Shown here: positions 8,925-30,482 of the stretch, one piece after another
Layout of the letters: every line of letters begins with the position of its first letter
Numbering within the stretch: position 1 is the first letter of the stretch
Source of the DNA: Corynespora cassiicola
Lineage: Eukaryota; Ascomycota; Dothideomycetes; Pleosporales; Corynesporascaceae
Direction: 5' to 3'
Assembly (NCBI GenBank): GCA_022059125.1
Contig: JAEUWY010000004.1
Location: forward strand, 186,001 to 250,000
DNA: 64,000 nt
The notes under the pieces: model-generated
What the model saw: the letters and a program-made list of their open reading frames with translations, nothing else
Database searches by the model: none
Told to the model about the DNA's origin: nothing
Made by a program: the position numbers and the translations under genes

Positions 8925-9294
8925 TGTTATGAGCCACAAACGTGGGCCAATGACGGGGCCGACAGGGTCGCACCGCCATGGCTGGTCACGTGACGTGCTC
9001 AGTTGATCAGTCCGCTCAGCAGTACTGAGCAACTGAGCAGTACTGAGCAGAAGCCTCAGGCACATGTATATAGTCCACACAATTGTACTCTACAATTGTG
9101 TTCACCTTGTTAGCAAATCTATCGTTTGGAATTGACTATCAACCTATCGTGCTCTATCTGCCAACACGGAGACCCGTACAGCATATCGCACATCGTTTCA
9201 CTCACGTGACCCTACCAGTACTTATCCCCGAGAATCAACCCAAGCAGCTACTTGCTCCCTAGCCTCGCTCATAGCCTGTAGCACAGCCTTAACA
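8925..9294 (+). repeat. 5' long terminal repeat
   Basis: 370 bp. TATATA at 9067-9072 places a transcript start near 9098. The upstream U3 part holds GTCACGTGAC at 8985-8994 and a cluster of CAGTACTGAGC palindromes at 9014-9050. Confidence 0.95.
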
Positions 9295-9296
9295 TT

Positions 9297-9304
9297 GTGA
9301 ACAC
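9297..9304 (+). promoter_or_regulatory. primer-binding site, self-priming type
   Basis: GTGAACAC, two bases past the LTR end, is the exact reverse complement of GTGTTCAC at 9098-9105, which begins 31 bp after the TATA box. No TGG-type tRNA site is seen. In Tf1 the mRNA 5' end folds back to prime in this way. Confidence 0.7.
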
Positions 9305-9312
9305 CCTTCAAG

Positions 9313-11307
9313 ATGAGTACCACTTCAGGATCACGCGCACCCTCAACCCCAACCAGTAGCACTGTTGGTGCTAAGGCCACTACTGGTGCAATCGTACAAC
9401 CTAACACGGCAGACAACAATTCTATCAAAGTAGCAACACCTGACCTCTACCATGGAGAACGAAGCAAGCTCGAAGACTGGCTCTTGCAGCTCGACTTGTT
9501 CTTCGACTTCCAAGGTGGAAACGTTAAGGAAAAGAAACGCGTCATGTTCGCAGCCACGTACATGAGAGGCAAAGCACTTCAATGGATCAAACCAGCTCTC
9601 ATCAAGTACAAGGACGGCGAAGCCAACGACGACGTCAACGAATGGATGGAGGATTTCGATGAATTCAAGGAGAAGATCAAACAAGTCTTCGGAATCGCCA
9701 ACAAGGATACAATTGCCGGACGAGACATCCAACATCTCAAACAACGGGCTTCAGCTGCTGACTACGCCAACGAATTTCAGCAACTGTCGATCCTCACGGA
9801 ATGGGATGACAAGGCACTTATGACGATGTACCGCCAAGGACTCAAACCCAACGTCAAAGAAGAACTCATGCGTTCTGGAGCTCAGCTCGACACGCTTGAA
9901 CAACTTATAAATGAGTCCATCGACATCGATCAGAAACTGTACGAACTGCGTATGGAATTACGCCAGGACCAAAACCCACGATACCGACAACGTACCAAAC
10001 CAAGCTATGGCAAAGGGTACTACAACGCCAACACCGGTAAACGAGTTGAACGCAAGGTAACGCATCTCACTCGTGACACCTATGGTGACGAACCAATGGT
10101 CCTCGGTAATATCCAGGAAGCGGGACGAGGAGGTAACAAAAAGAGAAACGACAAGCCTAAAGGCAAGGCTATAACTTGCTACGCGTGTGGAAAGACAGGC
10201 CACATCGCAAGAGACTGTCGATCAAAGAACAAGGTCGTTCGACAGCTAAATGTATTGCAAACCACTCCGGATGACGAATCCGACGCAGACGATGAATGGA
10301 AAGTCGTCGTAGACAGATTCCAGAAAACGGGATTCATCTGCGACAGCGAACCACTGCGACATGGAGAAACGGAGGGATTCTTCGATTGTGTTCAGTATCA
10401 AGACAAAGGCACTCAAACGGAGCCTAGGAGCATCCTTAAAGAAGTCAAATTTGAAGGACCTAGCCCCGAGGAAGAAGAAGCCTTTCGCGAAGCACACGAT
10501 CACGAAGACTATCTAAGCGACGCCAGTTACGAGTTCGAAAGAAACAGCGATGGCAGCACGCCACCCGAACTCGCACGATTCAGGATGAACAAGGACCTCG
10601 AAGAAATACAAGAATTGGCCGAAGCTCTTAAGGAACACAGGAGAGATTCGACAAGAACGCCCGCATGGCGGGAAGAATCACCTGTAACGCGCAAACGGAC
10701 AAAGAGGCACAATGACTCAGACAAAGAAAATCAAGACCCAGAGGAACGCCGACAACGACGCAGTTCCAAGGCATGGGAACGAGTCAATCAACCAGATTCA
10801 GGAATCAAACTGGGAGTTTTACCAGACCCTGACAGCGAACCAAACACGGTTCCAAGTCCTCTACGAAGCCGAAACACGCAAGAACTGCAATACTACCTAG
10901 ACCCAAGGAATCCAAAACACGTAACTTACTCATGGACCTCTTGTCGAGAAGACCAATGTCAAATCCACTACTCGGACAAGATGGCCGCAAACTGGTTTCC
11001 ATCCAAACCACGCAAATGCAAACATCAATGGTTCGACTGCGAGACACATGTATGCGACACTCACCTATGGGACAAACGACAATCACAACATTTCCCCGGG
11101 ATGAACGAAGCTGAAGAACTCGCAACGAACATGCTAGTCAACAGGAGATGTACGCAAGATCTCTGGCAAACATGCTTACACGATGATTGCGAACGTCACT
11201 GGAATGAGAAACGCTTGTATGGATTCAGCAACGAGTCTTTTTTAGGACAGCACTTAGCGCCTGGGATCGACCCAAGGCATTGTGCGCTACCAACTCAGAG
11301 AACTTAG
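9313..11307 (+). CDS. Gag polyprotein with extended Cys/His-rich C-terminus
   Basis: 664 residues. The first 230 residues are a capsid-like retrotransposon Gag domain (motifs [23 protein letters not shown]). A CCHC zinc knuckle, [14 protein letters not shown], lies at residues 289-302. About 360 residues follow, which is long for a Gag: an acidic, proline-poor stretch and then three spaced modules W-x2-C-x4-C-x2-H-x3-K at residues 541-556, 573-588 and 618-633; the second and third also have a Cys 4-5 residues before the Trp. Gag ends in TAG at 11305-11307 and overlaps pol. It would form the particle and bind RNA; the function of the triple module is unknown. Confidence 0.9.
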
Positions 11308-14300
11308 TCAAGCTACCTGTCAAGCTTAATGGATACTGGATGAAGGCATTATTAGACACAGGGGCTCAGCGCAACTACCTTTCACAGCAGGCTGTAAAGC
11401 GTAGTAAGGCAAGAACGCATGCCCACGAGCGACCCTATTTCCTCCACACGGCAACTGGAAGGAAGATGCCAGGAAAAGCATTGATGGATCAAGAAGCCAC
11501 GACCATCATGGACATCCAGGGACACCAGGAAGAGATCTCCTTCGACATCATGGGCACGGCCATCCACGACGTCATTTTAGGACTTCCATGGTTCAGAAAG
11601 CATAACCCATATATCGACTGGGCGAAAAAGAAGCTTTCGTTCATAGGATGCGAGTGCGCCATCGCATCGGGACCTACGCATCGGCAGCGTTCGATGGTAG
11701 ATGAGATCACGCTGAATAACATAGGCAGCAAGGGATCGACTAAGACGCTTTCAAGAAGAAAGGTCGACTCCACCAGATCCGACAAGGAGCCACCGGACAA
11801 AGAAGTGAGAGATTTGGAGACAACTCGCGCAACTCCTGTAATCCCCGAAGAGTACAGCAAATGGGAACCACTCTTTCGAGAAGAGGTAGACGACAGAGCG
11901 TTACCTAAGCATCAGCCCTGGGACTGCGAAATAGCCCTTCAGGAAGGAAAGCATCCGACTTTCGAGCCCATCTACAGTCTAACGGAAAAAGAACTCGTAT
12001 CGTTACGAGCATACCTCGATGAAAACCTCAAGAAAGGATTCATACGCGAATCAACGTCAGAGGCGGGATACCCGATCATCTTTGTTCCCAAGAAAGATGG
12101 ATCCCTACGGTTATGTGTGGATTTTAGGAAACTCAACAACATCACGATCAAGAACAGATATCCACTACCGAACATTCAAGAGCTCAGAGATAGGCTATCT
12201 GGAGCACAGATATTTACAGCCTTAGATCTCCGAGGCGCGTACAACTTGATACGCATGAAGAAAGGTGAAGAATGGAAGACGGCATTCCGGACGCGGTATG
12301 GGCACTATGAATATCTTGTAATGCCATTCGGTCTTACCAACGCACCTGCGACATGTCAGGCACTCATCAACAACGTGTTGAGAGCACACCTAGACATATT
12401 CGTCATCGCATACCTAGATGACATCCTAGTCTTTTCCAAGGACCTCAAGGAACACGTCCAGCACGTACGAACAGTACTGGAATGTTTGGGAAAAGCAGGA
12501 CTACGACTCAAACCAGAGAAATGTGAATTCCACAAAGAAGAAGTTGAATTCTTAGGACACATTGTGGGAAGACACGGAGTCAAGATCAGTCCAAAGAAAA
12601 TTGAAGTAGTCAAGAACTGGCCTACGCCAAAGAACGTCAAGGACATACAATCCTTCTTAGGATTCTGCAACTTCAACAGGCAGTTCATCGATCACTACTC
12701 AGAAAAGGCACTACCACTCACCAAATTAACAAGAAAAGATGTACCATTTAAGTGGGATACAGACCAACAACAAGCCTTTGAGACACTCAAAGAAGCAAGC
12801 ATATCACCACCGGTTCTCATATCTTTCACCAGTGGAAAACCCTTACGCATGGAAACAGACGCATCAGACCTAGCAATGGGAGCATGCATCAGTCAAGAAA
12901 AAGAAGGCAAATGGCACCCGATTGCCTACTATTCGAGAAAGTTCAGCGGAGCTGAAGAAAACTACGATGTTCACGACAAGGAATTACTTGCCATCATAGA
13001 CTCTCTCAAGCATTGGAGAATCTACGCAGAAAGCTGTTCAGAACTCACGGTATACTCGGACCACAAGAATCTAATGACATTCACGACAACCAAACCATTA
13101 GACCGACGACATACCAGATGGAGTGAAGAACTAGGACAGTACAAATTCAAGATTGTCTACACACCAGGCAAAGAAAATGGAAGAGCAGATGCTCTGAGTC
13201 GAAGGACGGACATCGCAGGAACCAAGTCAACGAACGAAGCTGCTATCCTCAAGCAAGCGCCAGACGGCACTTTAGGGCCAGCACGCAGCATCAATCTTAT
13301 CATGACAGTACATCAACAAGTACCAGAAGAACTTCATCAAACCATCATCCAGCAGTATCACGAAGATCCGTTGCACGGACACCCAGGTGTCGAACAAACG
13401 ATCAAACTGATACAACGAACGTACGACATCCCTGGATTGAAAGACAAAGTAGCGAAGTTCATCAAGAAATGCACAACATGTCAAAAGAACAAGCACAGTA
13501 CACACGCTCAATATGGAGAACTACAAGCTGTAGAAATACCAGACAAACCATGGACAGACATTGCTATGGACTTTGTCACCGGATTACCAACGTCTCACGA
13601 CCCGGTTTCCAGAGTACCCTACAATGCCATCCTAGTGGTTGTGGACAGATTCACGAAATACGCAGAAATGATTCCATTTAGAGACAACTACACTGCGCCG
13701 GAACTAGCACAGGTTATTCTGGATCGCGTAGTTAGGTATCACGGATTGCCTCAATCAATCATCAGCGACAGAGACAAACTCTTCACATCAAACTACTGGA
13801 CGACACTGATGTCAGCCATCGGAATTAAAAGAAAATTATCAACGGCATACCATCCACAGACAGACGGTCAAACAGAAAGAACAAACCAGACCATGAAAAC
13901 ATACCTACGGATGTATAGCAACCAAAAACAAAATAATTGGGTATCACTACTACCCATGGCACAACTCGCATTCAACAACAGAGAATCAGTAACGACGAAG
14001 CAATCTCCTTATTATGCATTACACGGGACACACCCAAATCTCCTATTACCAAGGATTAAGGAAGAACGAATCAAGCCAGTTGCAAGTCAAGCAATGGACA
14101 AATCGGGAGAATTACGAGAACTTCACGAACAATTACGAAAGAATATCGAGACAGCACAACGCAAGACCATTTCTTATGTCAACCAGAAACGAAAAATGGC
14201 ACCTCAGCTAAAGAGGGGGGATAAAGTGTATCTTCTCACGAAAAATCTTCGAACGACACGACCAAGCAAGAAATTGGATCACGTCAAGGTCGGACCATTT

Positions 14301-14771
14301 TTGATTCTAGAACGAAAGGGACCAGTCAACTATAAACTCCAACTCCCTGCCAATGCTAGAATACACCCAGTGTTCCATGTGTCACTATTGGAACCTGCCG
14401 ACGCCGAAACACCAGTCCAAGAACACTTCCATTACGAGACGGAAGAAGAAGTCGAATTCGAAGTAGAAGCGCTAGTAGGCTACCGCGAGATAGGACGAGA
14501 CGAATTCCGCGACAACCACTTCGCACAGGAATGGTTGGTCAAATGGAAAGGATACCCAGATTCGGAAAACACTTGGGAACCAGAACGAAACCTGAAGAAC
14601 TGTCAGCGACTACTCAAGGAAAGCCGAAGACGAAATCACCTCCACTACTACACAGGGGTAATCAAAGAAAACATACCCGAAGAAAGGCGACACATCGTAC
14701 ACGACCAAACACTTAGGGACCAGCGGACGACACGGGTACTTCCCAGAAGTTGTCGGGAAAACCCTCGATAG
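11208..14771 (+). CDS. Pol polyprotein (protease, RT, RNase H, integrase, chromodomain)
   Basis: Open in the -1 frame relative to gag from 11208, read by frameshifting near 11244. Landmarks: protease LLDTGAQ with Asp at 11355; reverse transcriptase with [19 protein letters not shown] and catalytic YLDD at 12411-12422; RNase H with Asp in METDASDLA at 12858; integrase with the HHCC zinc site (HGHPG, CTTCQ) and the DDE triad at Asp 13569, Asp 13767 and Glu 13875; the GPF strand motif; then a chromodomain (about 14478-14635) with [18 protein letters not shown]. Chromodomains of this class steer integration to marked chromatin, which fits the landing site inside an A+T-rich RIPped block. All catalytic residues are present and the frame is unbroken, so the element could be active. 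Confidence 0.93.
11238..11244 (+). promoter_or_regulatory. -1 ribosomal frameshift site TTTTTTA with stem-loop
   Basis: In the gag frame the codons are TTT TTA after a T, the canonical X-XXY-YYZ heptamer U-UUU-UUA. It lies inside the 100-bp window where both frames are open (11208-11307). From 11255 a stem TAGCGC (11255-11260) can pair with GCGCTA (11284-11289), enclosing a second hairpin TGGG/CCCA (11262-11265, 11271-11274). Confidence 0.75.
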
Positions 14772-15282
14772 CGCTCCAAGTGCTCGGAGAAAGGTTAAGA
14801 GCAAGACCCTCGGAAGGACCGTCGAAAGTAAGAACTTCGGACAACGCCTCGCGTTCCCGCTGCTCTTGCTCCTCCAGGTCTCGTTCCTCCACCGATATGG
14901 CCTCCTCCGCACGACGATCGAGCAAGTCCATCTGTTGACGAAGCCGCTCTTCTTTGGCTCTCGCCACCTGCAAGTCCTCCAAGGCCTTTTCATGCGCTTT
15001 CACAGCCGCATCCTGCGCTTCGCGCGACTCCTTTATCTGTTGTCGCAATTTCTCTTTCTCCTTAGCAAGACGCTGGAACTCGGACTGAGTAACGCGAATG
15101 TTGCACCGCTGCCCGCGATGCAGACACTCACTGCACTTTCCGGAACGAACATGCACCTTACACACTCGTTTATGCTTTACGCAAGTCGAACACTTTTGAA
15201 CCATGACTTCTCCTACGGCCTCGACAAAATCAGCTAGGCGATGACGGCGGACGGTACTGGAGACTGTTGGTGTTTTAGGCAT
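14713..15282 (-). CDS. antisense ORF: Zn2Cys6-like zinc cluster plus coiled coil
   Basis: 189 residues from [10 protein letters not shown]; an upstream in-frame ATG at 15324 would add 14 residues. Cysteines at 31, 34, 41, 50, 53 and 60 give C-x2-C-x6-C-x8-C-x2-C-x6-C, which meets the GAL4-type binuclear cluster rule. Residues about 65-165 are a charged, heptad-like coiled coil ([16 protein letters not shown] onward), the usual place for dimerisation. The C-terminus is acidic and hydrophobic (about 150-189), as in an activation region. It runs against pol, overlapping its last 59 bp, and fills the gap before the polypurine tract. The RIPped relative keeps the same motif spacing at 29868-29936. 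A DNA-binding role is inferred; no transcript is known here. Confidence 0.8.
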
Positions 15283-15352
15283 CGTTGCGAAAGTGGGCAG
15301 CAACGAGGGAAACCCGCGCGTCATATGTTAGCTCAGAGGACCGAGCTAGGCT

Positions 15353-15365
15353 AGAGGGGGGATAG
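15353..15365 (+). promoter_or_regulatory. polypurine tract
   Basis: AGAGGGGGGATAG directly before the 3' LTR, the expected primer for plus-strand synthesis. Confidence 0.8.
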
Positions 15366-15735
15366 TGTTATGAGCCACAAACGTGGGCCAATGACGGGGC
15401 CGACAGGGTCGCACCGCCATGGCTGGTCACGTGACGTGCTCAGTTGATCAGTCCGCTCAGCAGTACTGAGCAACTGAGCAGTACTGAGCAGAAGCCTCAG
15501 GCACATGTATATAGTCCACACAATTGTACTCTACAATTGTGTTCACCTTGTTAGCAAATCTATCGTTTGGAATTGACTATCAACCTATCGTGCTCTATCT
15601 GCCAACACGGAGACCCGTACAGCATATCGCACATCGTTTCACTCACGTGACCCTACCAGTACTTATCCCCGAGAATCAACCCAAGCAGCTACTTGCTCCC
15701 TAGCCTCGCTCATAGCCTGTAGCACAGCCTTAACA
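15366..15735 (+). repeat. 3' long terminal repeat
   Basis: 370 bp, no difference from the 5' LTR seen by eye. Followed by the target copy ATTAA at 15736-15740. Confidence 0.95.
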
Positions 15736-17001: not shown

Positions 17002-17385
17002 CTAATTTTTTTTAGCTTTTTTTTTATTTAAATACGGCTTTTTAGTACTAATATTTATACTATAATTTTCTTCTTTTAAATATTTTTGTAAGCTTCTTTT
17101 AAATATTTTTATATTATTTTCTAGTAATATTCTTTTATTTGTTTTTTTAGGGCTTTTAATTAAATCCCTATTAATAATTTTTTTATTTTTTTCTAATAGC
17201 TTAATTTTATCTTTATTTTGTTGTTTATTTAAGCTATTAGATAATTTTTTTTTATTTATTCGTTGTATAGTAGCATAAATACTACTTTTATTTTTATTTA
17301 ATATATTAGAAATAGTTATAATAGGTGTATTAGCTTTTAATAAAAGATTAACTTTTTCTTTATAGTCTGAAAAGTGAGGTTCCAT
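17002..17385 (-). pseudogene. Tc1/mariner transposase N-terminus, RIPped
   Basis: An open stretch of 127 residues starting MEPHFSDYKEKV. It reads as a helix-turn-helix: EKVNLLLKANTPIITIS then ILNKNKSSIYATIQRI, the layout of the paired-like DNA-binding domain of Tc1-class transposases. The remainder is Lys- and Asn-rich, as expected after C-to-T decay, and the catalytic DDE region (about 16140-17000) is broken by stops. It lies inside the inverted repeats of the element at 8908-17851. Confidence 0.65.
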
Positions 17386-23684: not shown

Positions 23685-24104
23685 TGTTACGAATCTGAGA
23701 AAGTAGGCGGCGCAGGCAACGCTTTTAAAAAATAGCTAATAATAAGTACTAATAGAATATTAATACTAAAAAAGCTTAGTATAAAATTTATAGAACTCGT
23801 AACTTAGCGTTTTATAAGTTTTATAATTTTATAAAAATAGTTTTATAAAACTATAGAATTTTATAGAATTTAATATATATATAGCCTATATAATTATATT
23901 TTATAATTATATTTACTTTATTAGCAAATCTATTATTTAGAATTAACTATTAATTTATTATGCTTTATTACTAATACAGAAATCTATATAGTATATTATA
24001 TATTATTTTACTTACGTAACTTTACTAGTATTTATTTTTAAAAATTAACTTAAGTAGCTATTTATTTTTTAATCTCGCTTATAGCTTATAGTACAGCTTT
24101 AATA
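23685..24104 (+). repeat. 5' LTR of the RIPped chromovirus
   Basis: 420 bp beginning TGTTACGAATCTG; its last 180 bp align with the intact LTR. Confidence 0.85.
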
Positions 24105-27100
24105 TTATAAATATTTTTTAAAATAAGTACTACTTTAGAATTACGCGTATTTTTAATTTTAACTAATAGTACTATTAGTACTAAAGCTACTACTAGTATA
24201 ATTGTATAACCTAATACAGTAGATAATAATTTTATTAAAATAGTAATATTTAACTTTTACTATAAAAAATAAAGTAAGTTTAAAAACTAGCTCTTACAGC
24301 TTAACTTATTTTTTAACTTTTAAAATAAAAATATTAAAAAAAAAAAACGCGTTATATTTGCAGCTATATATATAAAAAATAAAATACTTTAATAAATTAA
24401 ACTAGTTTTTATTAAGTATAAAAACAGCGAAGCTAATAACGATATTAATAAATAAATAAAAAATTTTAATAAATTTAAAAAAAAAATTAAATAAATTTTT
24501 AGAGTTTCTAATAAAAATATAATTACTAAATAAATTATTTAATATTTTAAGCAACGGGCTTCAGCTGCTAACTATACTAATAAATTTTAATAACTATTAA
24601 TTTTTACTAAATAAAATAATAAAGTACTTATAATAATATACTGTTAAAAACTTAAATTTAATATTAAAAAAAAACTTATACGTTTTAGAGCTCAGCTTAA
24701 TACACTTAAATAACTTATAAATAAATTTATTAATATTAATTAGAAACTGTACGAATTACAAATAGAATTATACTAAAACTAAAACTTAAAATATAAACAA
24801 CGTACTAAACTAAACTATAGTAAAAAGTATTATAACGTTAATACTAGTAAATAAGTTAAACGTAAAGTAACGTATTTTACTTATAATACTTATAGTAATA
24901 AACTAATAGTTTTAGATAATATTTAAAAATCAGAATAAAAAAATAATAAAAAAAAATAATAAATTTAAAAATAAAGCTATAACTTACTATACGTGTAAAA
25001 AGACAGACTATATTATAAAAAACTATTAATTAAAAAATAAAATTATTTAACAGCTAAATATATTATAAACTATTTTAAATAATAAATCTAACGCAAATAA
25101 TAAATAAAAAGTTATTATAAATAAATTTTATAAAATAGAATTTATCTGCAACAGCGAACTACTACAACACAAAAAAATAAAAAAATTTTTTAATTATATT
25201 TAGTATTAAAATAAAAGCACTTAAATAAAGCTTAGAAGTATTTTTAAAAAAGTTAAATTTAAAAAATCTAGCTCTAAGAAAAAAAAAGCCTTTCGCAATA
25301 TATATAATTATAAAAAATATTTAAATAACTACAGCTGTAAGTATAAATTAGAAAAACTTACTAAATTTTAGATTAATAAAAATTTAGAATAGAGATAAGA
25401 ATTAGCTAAAATTCGCAAAAAAAACAGAAAAAATTTAATAAAAATATTTATATAGTAGAAAAAATTATCTGTAACGCGTAAATAGTTAAAAAAAAACTAT
25501 AATTTAAATAAAAAAAACTAAAATTTAAAAAAACGCTAATAACAACGCAGTTCTAAAGTATAGAAATAAATTAATTAACTAAATTTAAAAATTAAATTAA
25601 AAGTTTTACTAGATTTTAACAGCGAACTAAATACAGTTCTAAATTTTTTATAAAGCTAAAATACGTAAAAACTATAATACTACTTAAACTTAAAAAATTT
25701 AAAGTATATAAGCTATTTATAGATATTCTATAAAAAAAACTAATATTAGATTTACTATTTAGATAAAGCAACAGCAGAATAGTTTTTAAAAAAACTATAT
25801 AAATATACGCAACAGTAGTTTAACTGCAAGATATATAAATATAATACTTATTTATAAAATAAATAATAATTATAATATTTTTCTAAAATAAATAAAAATA
25901 AAAAACTTATAATAAATATACTAGTTAATAGAAAATATACGCAAAATTTTTAGTAAATATATCTATATAAAAATTATAAATATTACTAGAATAAAAAGTA
26001 TTTATATAGATTTAGTAATAATTTTTTTTTAGAACAGCATCTAGCGCTTAAAATTAATCTAAAATATTATATACTACTAATTTAAAAAGTTTAGTAAAGC
26101 TATCTATTAAGCTTAACAGATACTAAATAAAAATACTATTAGATATAGAAGTTTAATACAACTATGTTTTATAGCAGGCTGTAGAAAAAAGTAAAATAAA
26201 AATATATACTAAAAAATAACTCTATCTACTTTATATTATAAATAAAAAAAAAATATTAGAAAAAATAATAATAGATAATAAAGCACGTGCTACTATAAAT
26301 ATCTAAAAACACTAAAAAAAAATTACTCTTAACATCTTAAATATAGCTATTTATAATATTATTTTAGAACTTTTATAGTTTAGAAAGTATAACTTATATA
26401 TTAACTAAATAAAAAAAAAGCTTTTATTTATAGAATATAATTACGCTATTATATTAGAACTTATATATTAATAGTATTTAATAGTAGATAAAATTACGCT
26501 AAATAATATAGACAGTAAAAAATTAAACAAAACGCTTTTAAAAAAAAAAGTTAACTTTACTAAATTTAATAAAAAATTACTAAATAAAAAAGTAAAAGTT
26601 TAAAAAATAGCTTACGTAACTTCTAAAATCTCTAAAAAATATAGTAAATAAAAACTATTTTTTTAAAAAAAAATAAATAATAAAATATTATTTAAGTATT
26701 AGCTCTAAAACTGCGAAATAGCTTTTTAAAAAAAAAATATCTAACTTTTAAGCCTATTTACAGTTTATTAAAAAAAAAACTTATAATATTATAAATATAT
26801 TTTAATAAAAATTTTAAAAAAAAATTTATACGCGAATTAACGTTAGAGACAAAATATTTAATTATTTTTATTTTTTAAAAAAATAGATCTCTACAGTTAT
26901 ATATAGATTTTAAAAAACTTAATAATATTATAATTAAAAATAGATATTTACTATTAAACATTTAAAAGTTTAAAAATAAGCTATTTAAAATATAAATATT
27001 TATAGTTTTAGATTTTTAAAACGCGTACAACTTAATACGTATAAAAAAAATAAAAAATAAAAAACAGTATTCTAGACGCGGTATAAGTACTATAAATATT

Positions 27101-29849
27101 TTATAATACTATTTAGTTTTACTAACGCATCTGCGATATATTAAATACTTATTAATAACGTATTAAAAATATATTTAGATAATATTTTAGTTTTTTTTAA
27201 AAACTTTAAAAAACACATCTAGTATATATAAATAGTACTAGAATATTTAGAAAAAGCAGAACTACGACTTAAACTAGAGAAATATAAATTCTATAAAAAA
27301 AAAGTTAAATTTTTAGAATATATTATAGAAAAATATAAAGTTAAAATTAGTTTAAAAAAAATTAAAGTAGTTAAAAACTAGTCTACGCTAAAAAATATTA
27401 AAAATATATAATTTTTTTTAAAATTCTGTAACTTTAACAGACAGTTTATTAATTACTATTTAAAAAAAATATTACTACTTATAAAATTAATAAAAAAAAA
27501 TATACTATTTAAGTAGAATATAAACTAATAATAGGCTTTTAAAACACTTTAAAAAGTAAGTATATTACTACTAGTTTTTATATTTTTTACTAGTAAAAAA
27601 CTTTTACGTATAGAAACAGACGTATTAAATTTAGTAATAAAAATATATATTAATTAAAAAAAAAAGTAAATAGTATTTAATTATTTATTATTTAAAAAAA
27701 TTTAGCAGAGCTAAAAAAAATTACAATATTTATAATAAAAAACTACTTACTATTATAAATTTTTTTAAATATTAGAGAATTTATACAGAAAACTGTTTAA
27801 AACTTACAGTATATTTAAATTATAAAAATCTAATAATATTTATAATAACTAAACTATTAGACTAATAATATACTAGATAGAGTAAAAAACTAAAATAATA
27901 TAAATTTAAAATTATTTATACGCTAAATAAAGAAAATAAATAAATAGATATTTTAAGTTAAAAAATAAATATTACAGAAACTAAGTTAATAAATAAAACT
28001 ATTATTTTTAAGTAAGTGCTAGACAGTACTTTAGAACTAGTACACAGTATTAATTTTATTATAACAGTATACTAATAAATACTAAAAAAACTTTATTAAA
28101 CTATTATTTAATAGTATTATAAAAATTTATTATATAAATATCTAAGTGTTAAACAGATAATTAAACTAATATAATAAACGTATAATATTTCTAGATTAAA
28201 AAACAAAATAGCGAAGTTTATTAAAAAATATATAATATATTAAAAAAATAAGTATAGTATACACGCTTAATACAGAGAACTATAAGCTATAAAAATACTA
28301 AATAAACTTTAAATAAATATTATTATAGATTTTATTACTAAACTACTAACGTTTTATAACCTAGTTTCTAAAGTATTTTATAATATTATTTTAGTAGTTA
28401 TAAACAGATTTATAAAATACGCAGAAATAATTCTATTTAAAAATAATTATACTATACTAGAATTAGTATAGATTATTTTAAATTACGTAATTAAGTATTA
28501 TAAATTACTTTAATTAATTATTAGTAACAGAAATAAACTTTTTATATTAAACTATTAGATAATACTAATATTAGCTATTAGAATTAAAAAAAAATTATTA
28601 ATAGTATACTATCTACAGATAGACGGTTAAATAGAAAAAATAAACTAAATTATAAAAATATATCTACGGATATATAGCAACTAAAAATAAAATAATTAGA
28701 TATTATTATTATTTATAATATAACTTATATTTAATAATAGAGAATTAGTAATAATAAAGTAATTTTTTTATTACGTATTACACAGAATATATCTAAATTT
28801 TTTATTACTAAAAATTAGAAAAAAACAGATTAAGTTAGTTATAAGTTAAGTAATAAATAAATTAAAAAAATTATAAAAATTTTATAGATAATTATAGAAA
28901 AATATTAAGACAGTATAACGTAAAACTATTTCTTATATTAATTAAAAACAAAAAATAGCACTTTAGCTAAAAAAAAAAAAAAAAATATTTTTTTTTATAA
29001 AAAACTTTTAAATAATATAACTAAGTAAAAAATTAGATTACGTTAAAGTTAGACTATTTTTAATTCTAAAATAAAAAAAACTAGTTAATTATAAACTTTA
29101 ACTCCCTGCTAATGCTAGAATATATTTAGTATTTTATATATTACTATTAGAATTTACTAACACCGAAATACTAGTTTAAAAATACTTCTATTATAAAATA
29201 GAAGAAAAAGTTAAATTTAAAGTTAAAGCACTGCTAGACTACCGCGAAATTAAATAAAAAAAATTTTAAAATAAATAGTTTATTTAGAAATTTCTAGTTA
29301 AATAAAAAAACTACTCTAATTCGGAAAACACTTAAAAACTAAAAAAAAATCTATAAAATTATTAGTAACTACTAAAAAAATATTAAAAGAAATATATTAT
29401 CTACTACTACACGGGGTTAGAATAAAAAAACTTACTTATAAAAAAAAAATTTATTTTTTAAAAATAATTAGAGACTTAATAATATAGAATAACTATTAAA
29501 AAGTTTAAAAAATTAAAAAATAGATTAGTTTATAGCTGCAGTACTGGCAGAAACTTTAAAATTTATTAAAACTATTTTTTAGTTTAGCGCTTCTAGCGTT
29601 TTTAGCTACTTTAACTTTTTTACAGCTTTAAAATCCGCGTTAAATAACTTTTTTTTTTTTTTTTAGAAACTTTTTTTATTTTTATAAATATTTTAGCTTA
29701 AAATACGTATTACGTATCCGCGCTAAAACAGCTTTAACTAAATATTTTTTTTTTTTAAAATAGTTTTAGTTACTTTTTTTTTTCAGCTTATTTATTTTAA
29801 AGTTAATTTTAAAAAAGTTAAAAAGCAAAATATTAACTAGTATATATAA

Positions 29850-29940
29850 CTAATAGCCCGCGTACTCACAGTTTCTACACTTTTTACTTAATAATAATAG
29901 CTTATAAGTTAAATTATTTTTTACATAACGTTTATAAGCA
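29850..29940 (-). pseudogene. relic of the antisense Zn2Cys6 motif in the RIPped element
   Basis: Read on the minus strand, positions 29936 to 29868 encode Y-x2-Y-x6-Y-x8-C-x2-C. The three Tyr codons are TAT where the intact element has Cys codons, the change RIP makes in TGC or TGT, and the last two Cys are still TGT. Spacing is identical to the intact ORF at 14713-15282. Confidence 0.75.
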
Positions 29941-30057
29941 ACTATTATAATAATATTTTAAGTATTAATATAATTTTTATAAATATAATAATAAGCGGTA
30001 CTGCGCGACAACATCAGATTAGCCTATAAAAATATTAAACTAGAAAAAAAAAAGTAG

Positions 30058-30477
30058 TATTATAAATCTGAGAAAGTAGACGGCGCAGACAACGCTTTTA
30101 AAAAATAGCTAATAATAAATACTAATAGAATATTAATACTAAAAAAGCTTAGTATAAGATTTATAGAACTCGTAACTTAGCGTTTTATAAATTTTATAGT
30201 TTTATAAAAATAGTTCTATAAAACTATAGAATTTTATAGAATTTAATATATATATAGCTTATATAATTATATTTTATAATTATGTTTACTTTATTAGCAA
30301 ATTTATTATTTAAAATTAACTATTAACTTATTATGCTTTATTACTAACACAGAGATCTGTATAGTATATCGCATATTATTTTACTTATATAACTTTACTA
30401 GTACTTATTTCTGAGAATTAACTTAAGTAGCTACTTGCTTTCTAGCCTCGCTTATAGCCTGTAGTATAGTTTTAATA
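30058..30477 (+). repeat. 3' LTR of the RIPped chromovirus
   Basis: 420 bp beginning TATTATAAATCTG, the RIPped form of the 5' copy. The two LTRs differ from each other, as expected when RIP hits them separately. Confidence 0.85.
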
Positions 30478-30482
30478 TACTA

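Follow-up and report, generated by a model that had tools for sequence, protein, structure and literature searches.

Zhao et al. (2011) are said to have reported brtn as the antisense gene of Boty-like elements in Botrytis cinerea. Extra antisense genes occur in long terminal repeat (LTR) retrotransposons of plants and Botrytis, and the excerpted text of PMC7264820 gives their function as not known. Mentions of brtn also stand in excerpts of PMC8365987, PMC4227169 and PMC5987419, and an excerpt of PMC5408684 places additional open reading frames (ORFs), the ORF3s, downstream of pol in rotifer elements. In plants, the aORF-3R genes (Grande gene23, RIRE2, Retand TRP28) lie antisense between pol and the 3' LTR and are conserved across copies; the Grande product is nuclear, and the antisense ORFs of Retand TRP28 have predicted DNA binding (excerpts of PMC7264820 and PMC11963269). 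The locus described here is a 64,000-nucleotide stretch of the Corynespora cassiicola genome (the window; contig JAEUWY010000004.1, positions 186,001 to 250,000) that holds a complete Ty3/gypsy chromovirus. Between pol and the 3' LTR of this element lies an intact minus-strand ORF of 189 amino acids, which we call aORF, as an earlier note on this DNA had described. The gene is no isolated oddity of an otherwise standard element, and precedents for its position exist in Boty brtn and plant aORF-3R (PMC7264820, as excerpted).

Compared by description and not by sequence, Boty is likewise a fungal element with gag, reverse transcriptase, integrase and chromodomain plus an extra antisense gene, but the partial descriptions of brtn make no mention of exchange with U3. 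The plant case differs in that Retand is described as a non-chromovirus, the protein domain is another one, and the excerpts of PMC7264820 and PMC11963269 describe no co-exchange with U3. The Podospora element crapaud resembles ours: it has a chromodomain, its R-U5 is conserved while its U3 has diverged into types, and in three clusters the interior is mostly homologous; Westerberg et al. propose a template switch for its U3, citing earlier work (PMC10787394, as excerpted). However, only two ORFs are drawn for crapaud, the word antisense is absent from the text, and the cause of the U3 diversity is left open (PMC10787394). In the open-licence literature searched, we found no description of a Zn2Cys6 gene that lies antisense and is exchanged jointly with U3. 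In the immunity regions of lambdoid phages, a regulator and its operators are swapped as a module between otherwise similar elements. Those are bacterial viruses with a proven repressor, whereas in the chromovirus the likeness is known as an exchange pattern alone. VANDAL of Arabidopsis is a DNA transposon, and its protein VANC is unrelated to the aORF protein. Among proven cases of an element protein paired with repeats in that element, VANC is nevertheless the nearest we found: it targets short repeats there, and both change, although the matching arises by coevolution and not by block exchange on a constant chassis (PMC5735166, as excerpted). The antisense extra gene is of a known kind, and the behaviour of regulator plus U3 as a cassette appears to be new.

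Sequence comparison of the copies in this genome (44.35 Mb, 23 contigs) shows one R-U5-gag-pol chassis bearing at least five 3' cassettes, A (the window element), B1, B2, C and D. Antisense gene and U3 are peculiar to each cassette, and the gene is Zn2Cys6-like in A, B1 and B2. The alignments likewise show aORF and U3 being exchanged on the constant chassis as one contiguous unit. We lean slightly towards the view that aORF encodes a small dimeric Zn2Cys6-like self-regulator exchanged together with its operator, whichever the sign of the regulation. A wider proposal, put forward tentatively and at somewhat less than even chances, is that fungal chromoviruses carry swappable aORF-U3 regulator-operator cassettes, exchanged by template switching on a constant gag-pol chassis.

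Divergence was counted in transversions because repeat-induced point mutation (RIP) yields transitions only. Over R-U5, gag and pol, transversions relative to A amount to 1.2% in B1 (n = 5543), 1.0% in B2 (n = 5401) and 1.4% in D (n = 5373); over the whole element, A differs from three of its own relics by 0.4-0.7%. C, compared with A over 393 nt only, shows 0.9% in R-U5 and 1.8% at the pol end (14553-14715). Purifying selection was ruled out as the source of this similarity. Transversions at third positions of pol number 5/1040 (B1), 5/1040 (B2) and 10/1030 (D), or 0.5-1.0%, next to 4/1040 and 3/1040 (0.3-0.4%) in two A relics. Because third positions are equally similar, the chassis is the same element and not a protein held by selection.

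In the stretch that runs from the pol end to the TATA box, blastn aligns A with none of B1, B2, C and D (E <= 1e-5). The left edge of the exchanged block falls at 14467 in B2, 14491 in D, 14678 in B1 (taken from copies L031 and L033) and 14715 in C; in B1, transversions already stand at 8-9% from about 14541 onwards. The right edges cluster at 15492 (B1), 15505 (C and D) and 15507 (B2), where the TATA box stands (15508). In the pair of B1 and B2 copies compared, the antisense genes can be aligned (14.6% transversions) and the U3s cannot. A B-type U3 lies within 320 bp upstream of 23 of the 47 B genes and of none of the 58 A genes, a count that excludes three of the 43 rows of the B2-U3 search (secondary pieces); 40 of 95 candidates were scored in that search. 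The R-U5 searches scored 40 of 209 and 40 of 306 candidates, and the counts from all these searches are lower bounds.

The antisense gene is a regular companion of pol. The pol search scored 124 of 222 candidates, and its 124 integrase/chromodomain rows merged into 120 pol loci, again a lower bound. An A gene adjoins 54 of these at least 120 loci, a B gene 41, both none and neither 25. The gene is convergent beside a scored pol at 54 of the 58 loci of type A and 41 of the 47 of type B, the remainder being without a scored pol match within 1 kb; wherever such a match lay nearby, the orientation was convergent. One pol locus has an additional same-strand A gene 577 bp away, which is convergent with another pol. 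The homologues beside other chromovirus pol genes that the earlier note had asked about are present within this genome and, by indirect signs only, elsewhere. All 19 full-length A copies carry the gene antisense between pol and the 3' LTR, as in aORF-3R elements.

Pol loci without an A gene first looked devoid of an aORF, but the four that were read carry an antisense frame of another kind (type B), marked by CxxC pairs and a helical tail. Searching with a profile of the broken B frames, in which each stop was written as X, brought up 76 proteins from elsewhere. UniRef gives two of these the name Zn(2)-C6; the complete six-Cys pattern is present in 41 of the 76, and many others are short. An alignment of the A profile with the B profile spans 149 columns (probability 97%, E 2.5e-11); in it all six Cys coincide, and in the tail LSPSTW lies opposite FSPAMW. 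All B matches in this genome contain stops. Four of the 25 neither-type loci, including the second element in the window at about 23.9-30.5 kb, show further antisense relics (types C and D). These copies are eroded; read by eye and with no chance control, they fill the first five places of the A spacing with Cys or Tyr, the Tyr being a probable RIP product of Cys codons. In tblastn against A-type proteins the C and D relics match weakly (E 5.6e-10 to 0.001, uncorrected for low complexity or composition).

Homologues also occur outside this genome. A search of 5.8 billion sequences with the aORF protein (P0001) found 182 proteins at E <= 1e-3, including the window's own protein (P0086), and a profile of diverged members found 227 at E <= 0.01, largely the same set. 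UniRef names two proteins among the A matches listed Zn(2)-C6 fungal-type. Named matches in the A and B searches come from Cercospora, Sporormia, Hortaea, Periconia, Exserohilum and Pyrenophora; given these and the RIP-like relics, this is a gene family in filamentous ascomycetes. No Botrytis name appears among the A, profile and B matches listed (120 of 182 and 120 of 227 for the first two; most rows unnamed), and three scans of IMG/VR viral contigs, with P0001, alignment A1 and pol, found no relative. The longest assembled piece with a homologue measured 6-8 kb for 29 of the 120 listed, 4-6 kb for five and 8-10 kb for one. The element minus one LTR measures 6.44 kb, a hint that homologues elsewhere may also sit in such elements.

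Protein-level constraint, which the earlier note had proposed to look for, was found on type B relics. In the antisense frame of B1 versus B2, transversions number 21, 15 and 36 at codon positions 1, 2 and 3 over 150 codons (p = 0.0025), in a test that draws on four non-independent pairwise comparisons and on B relics in place of the A gene. This third-position excess in type B, together with the homologues elsewhere, indicates that the antisense ORF encodes a real protein. Its 3' end overlaps the end of the convergent pol gene by 59 nt. Most aligned homologues begin at or close to the ATG at 15282; starting instead at 15324, where another ATG stands upstream in frame, would lengthen the protein to 203 amino acids.

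The protein has the plan that had been read from the sequence. Cys 31, 34, 41, 50, 53 and 60 fit C-x2-C-x6-C-x8-C-x2-C-x6-C exactly, and this spacing is kept in 134 of 141 A-type proteins (P0001 plus 140 listed) and absent in seven. AlphaFold2 predicts a single 85-residue helix at 66-150 (mean pLDDT 85.5), whose segment 111-132 contains many invariant residues, and residues 131-189 have a net charge of -11, which bears out the coiled coil and acidic tail of the earlier description. SPxxW of the A C-terminal motif recurs in type B. In structure comparison of models, the predicted folds of both A and B types resemble Zn2Cys6 regulators, at low scores. The aORF protein has the Cys spacing of Gal4, Hap1, Leu3, Ppr1, Put3 and Pho7 and, as in these, a coiled coil is predicted to follow, while the likeness of its predicted cluster fold to theirs is a low-scoring one; it differs from them in being element-borne and only 189 residues long, and in its loop and Pfam results given below. 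A Zn2Cys6-like protein on the plan of a GAL4-type regulator is thus supported by the models, with low scores.

The U3 contains operator-like repeats. In A, TGAGC stands at 15371, 15467, 15475 and 15485 and GCTCA at 15438 and 15455. These six half-sites in 150 bp compare with 0.56 expected, and 0 of 2000 shuffles reach six, but the word was chosen after inspecting A and B1, a reservation that joins those collected below; under the fairer control, the best 5-mer of any kind, 8/1000 and 5/300 shuffles reach the observed six. To allow for RIP, TRAGC/GCTYA was counted in the B U3s. The B1 U3s hold 11, 10 and 9 half-sites against 2.0, 2.4 and 1.7 expected (0, 1 and 0 of 1000 shuffles; best-5-mer control 2, 6 and 10 of 300) and carry GCTCA-N4-TGAGC pairs in series; GCTCA/TGAGC is the top 5-mer in A and B1. 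The B2 U3s hold 6, 5 and 5 (15, 103 and 3 of 1000 shuffles). Relatives in the Zn2Cys6 class differ from one another by the spacing and orientation of the same half-site. The half-site of A and B1 differs from CGG. The proposal that the protein controls its own LTR is supported indirectly, by the block change of aORF and U3 and by half-site clusters in A, in B1 and weakly in B2. No weight is placed on the repeated words of D: TATAGAA occurs eight times in L038 (1/500 shuffles) and could be made by RIP, and TATAAAA is the top word in L039 and in the window D copy (2/500 and 16/500).

A number of results weigh against a specific DNA-binding regulator. Four unrelated helical chains head the fold-match list of A. 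Pfam Zn_clus (PF00172) has no match to P0001 at E <= 1. In A the model matches 3 of 26 members at that threshold and in B 10 of 25 (best 0.0056); families unrelated to it match the B members with similar strength (Bunya_G1 in 7 of 25, best 0.0036). In a canonical Zn2Cys6 cluster the loop that reads the bases, between Cys 2 and Cys 3, is basic, and there is a loop proline. At the loop position that we take to be equivalent to the base-reading Lys-18 of Gal4, A proteins have mostly N, K, G or S, and the B-type loop is mostly not basic. In A, none of the common residues of the loop between C3 and C4 is proline; in most aligned B members Met-Pro precedes Cys 4. The sixth Cys position in C and D falls off the A spacing. 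In the U3, CGG/CCG enrichment in A was rejected (4 versus 3.3 expected), other words top the B2 lists and one of the three B2 copies is unremarkable (103/1000), and a single half-site for all cassettes was likewise rejected, as C and D hold 1-2 versus 0.95-1.7 expected. Finally, aORF and U3 are physically adjacent, and strand-transfer mechanics alone could move both; given this linkage, an association of gene type with U3 type is likely once the block has moved.

Family searches added little to the identity of the protein. Searches of PDB sequences with family alignments A1 and A4 gave no meaningful match. Pfam DUF3716 matches weakly in 3 of 25 B members (alignment A4; best E 0.003), no better than the chance families listed; judged by these matches, this uncharacterised family might include element-borne genes of the aORF kind.

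How might a self-regulator work and move? aORF would be transcribed antisense from the 3' LTR, and its protein would enter the nucleus, bind the half-sites repeated in the U3 of the element's LTRs and set the output of the sense gag-pol promoter. Activation would be somewhat likelier than repression, because the C-terminal motif is acidic and aromatic. Template switching during reverse transcription is the simplest conceivable origin of the exchange. In a heterodimeric particle, the first strand transfer at R, expected just downstream of the right edge, could place a foreign U3 and aORF on the resident chassis, and a second switch near the pol end would return to that chassis.

Repression deserves separate mention as a special case of the self-regulator. 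Here aORF would limit the element's own copies, and a cassette swap would let a newcomer escape the residents, as in heteroimmune phages. The exchange of regulator and operator on a constant chassis, the direct adjacency of the regulator gene to its putative operator, and the expansion of A alone as intact copies (every B match has stops, and erosion marks the copies of C and D that were read) would fit. Yet RIP alone accounts for the death of the older types, an acidic aromatic tail is closer to activation than to repression regions, and RIP escape as a cause of crapaud U3 diversity was tested and not found (Westerberg et al., PMC10787394, as excerpted); we regard this variant as unlikely. 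A structural accessory protein, acting in nuclear import, the integration complex or a ribonucleoprotein and linked to U3 by adjacency with no specific site there, would explain the non-canonical and, in B, mostly non-basic loop, and a mostly helical protein with segment 111-132 rich in invariant residues; plant and retroviral parallels with such roles have been proposed (PMC7264820, as excerpted). Because the block includes the chromodomain in B2 and D, and the chromodomain end of B1 is 8-9% diverged, integrase and aORF could be matched. In C, however, the chromodomain end stays with the chassis while aORF and U3 change, and the half-site clusters lie in the variable U3, which makes an accessory role improbable in our view.

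The exchange could also be functionless. Packaged heterologous RNAs would recombine at R and the pol end, and aORF and U3 would be hitch-hikers of old lineages whose gag-pol was homogenised. The right edge at the TATA box, adjoining the presumed R where the first strand transfer occurs, is what this predicts, and template switching, chance recombination and gene conversion have been raised for crapaud (Westerberg et al., PMC10787394, as excerpted). It leaves unexplained an A or B antisense gene at 95 of at least 120 pol loci (with relics at four others read), the protein-level constraint and the half-site clusters common to unalignable U3s, and we consider it distinctly doubtful. Least probable by far is that the antisense transcript and not the protein does the work, as double-stranded RNA against or for the element. 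Such roles are discussed for these regions (PMC7264820, as excerpted), but conservation is at the protein level, with Cys invariant or near-invariant.

Because gene type and promoter type change together on a constant chassis, the question of function becomes a matrix of protein by U3. If cognate pairs prove specific, retrotransposons would have modules for immunity or activation that can be exchanged, and with them a counterpart of phage heteroimmunity or else private activation. The cassette idea would also explain, in a way open to testing, why fungal elements like crapaud fall into U3 subfamilies.

Features of the type A element and its exchanged block (window positions)
Feature	Position	Strand	Size and basis
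Complete LTR retrotransposon, Ty3/gypsy chromovirus	8925-15735	+	6,811 bp; LTR identity, target-site duplication ATTAA (5 bp), protein domains
5' LTR	8925-9294	+	370 bp; LTR comparison
gag ORF: capsid, CCHC knuckle	9313-11307	+	ORF list and domain matches
T TTT TTA heptamer, candidate -1 frameshift site, gag to pol	11238-11244	+	Phase fits; putative function
pol ORF: protease, reverse transcriptase, RNase H, integrase, chromodomain	11340-14771	+	ORF list and domain matches
Chromodomain of pol	14457-14621	+	Domain match
Exchanged block (aORF, purine run, U3 to TATA)	14467-15507	.	Comparison with relics
aORF, 189 amino acids, cassette type A (P0001)	14713-15282	-	ORF list, homologue alignment
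Conserved C-terminal motif, residues 164-180, within acidic tail	14743-14793	-	Alignments of A and B families
Predicted long helix / coiled coil, residues 66-150	14833-15087	-	AlphaFold2
Zn2Cys6-like cluster, residues 31-60	15103-15192	-	Sequence; predicted-fold match
Purine run AGAGGGGGGA, likely polypurine tract	15353-15362	+	Sequence; putative role
3' LTR	15366-15735	+	370 bp; LTR comparison
U3 upstream of TATA, variable, co-exchanged part	15366-15507	.	Half-site counts and cassette comparison
TATA-R-U5, common to compared A, B1, B2, C and D copies	15508-15735	+	Cassette comparison

The element is a chromovirus by its LTRs and target-site duplication, its gag, the order protease, reverse transcriptase, RNase H and integrase, and the chromodomain that closes the integrase. 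A -1 shift at the heptamer would join the gag and pol frames; the pol frame is already open from 11208, upstream of it. The two LTRs show 0 differences over 370 bp. The genome holds 19 full-length A copies, the window copy included, all encoding an identical aORF protein; 18 are mutually identical, and the window copy departs by one base, in gag. LTR differences are zero in all 19 and target-site duplications match in 17. Given near-identical copies and zero LTR divergence, the amplification is very recent. RIP-type relics of this element abound in the genome in which the burst occurs. L025 and L027 are the two copies with non-matching duplications, a mismatch that inter-copy recombination would give. 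By hand count, the left-hand duplication is entirely A/T in 10 of the 19.

The gag gene may have a separate history. In bin 10500-11000 the active copy differs from the B1, B2 and D relics by 20-23 transversions per 477-500 bp, while most pol bins show only 1-5, and its total gag divergence from two A relics is similar to that from the B1, B2 and D relics. By these counts, the active element may carry an exchanged gag segment too. Elsewhere in the window, a second chassis copy (23875-30478) is heavily RIP-mutated and has a different 3' cassette, type D. On the minus strand at 17002-17385, a 127-amino-acid ORF in very A+T-rich DNA resembles, by eye, the helix-turn-helix start of a Tc1/mariner-like transposase.
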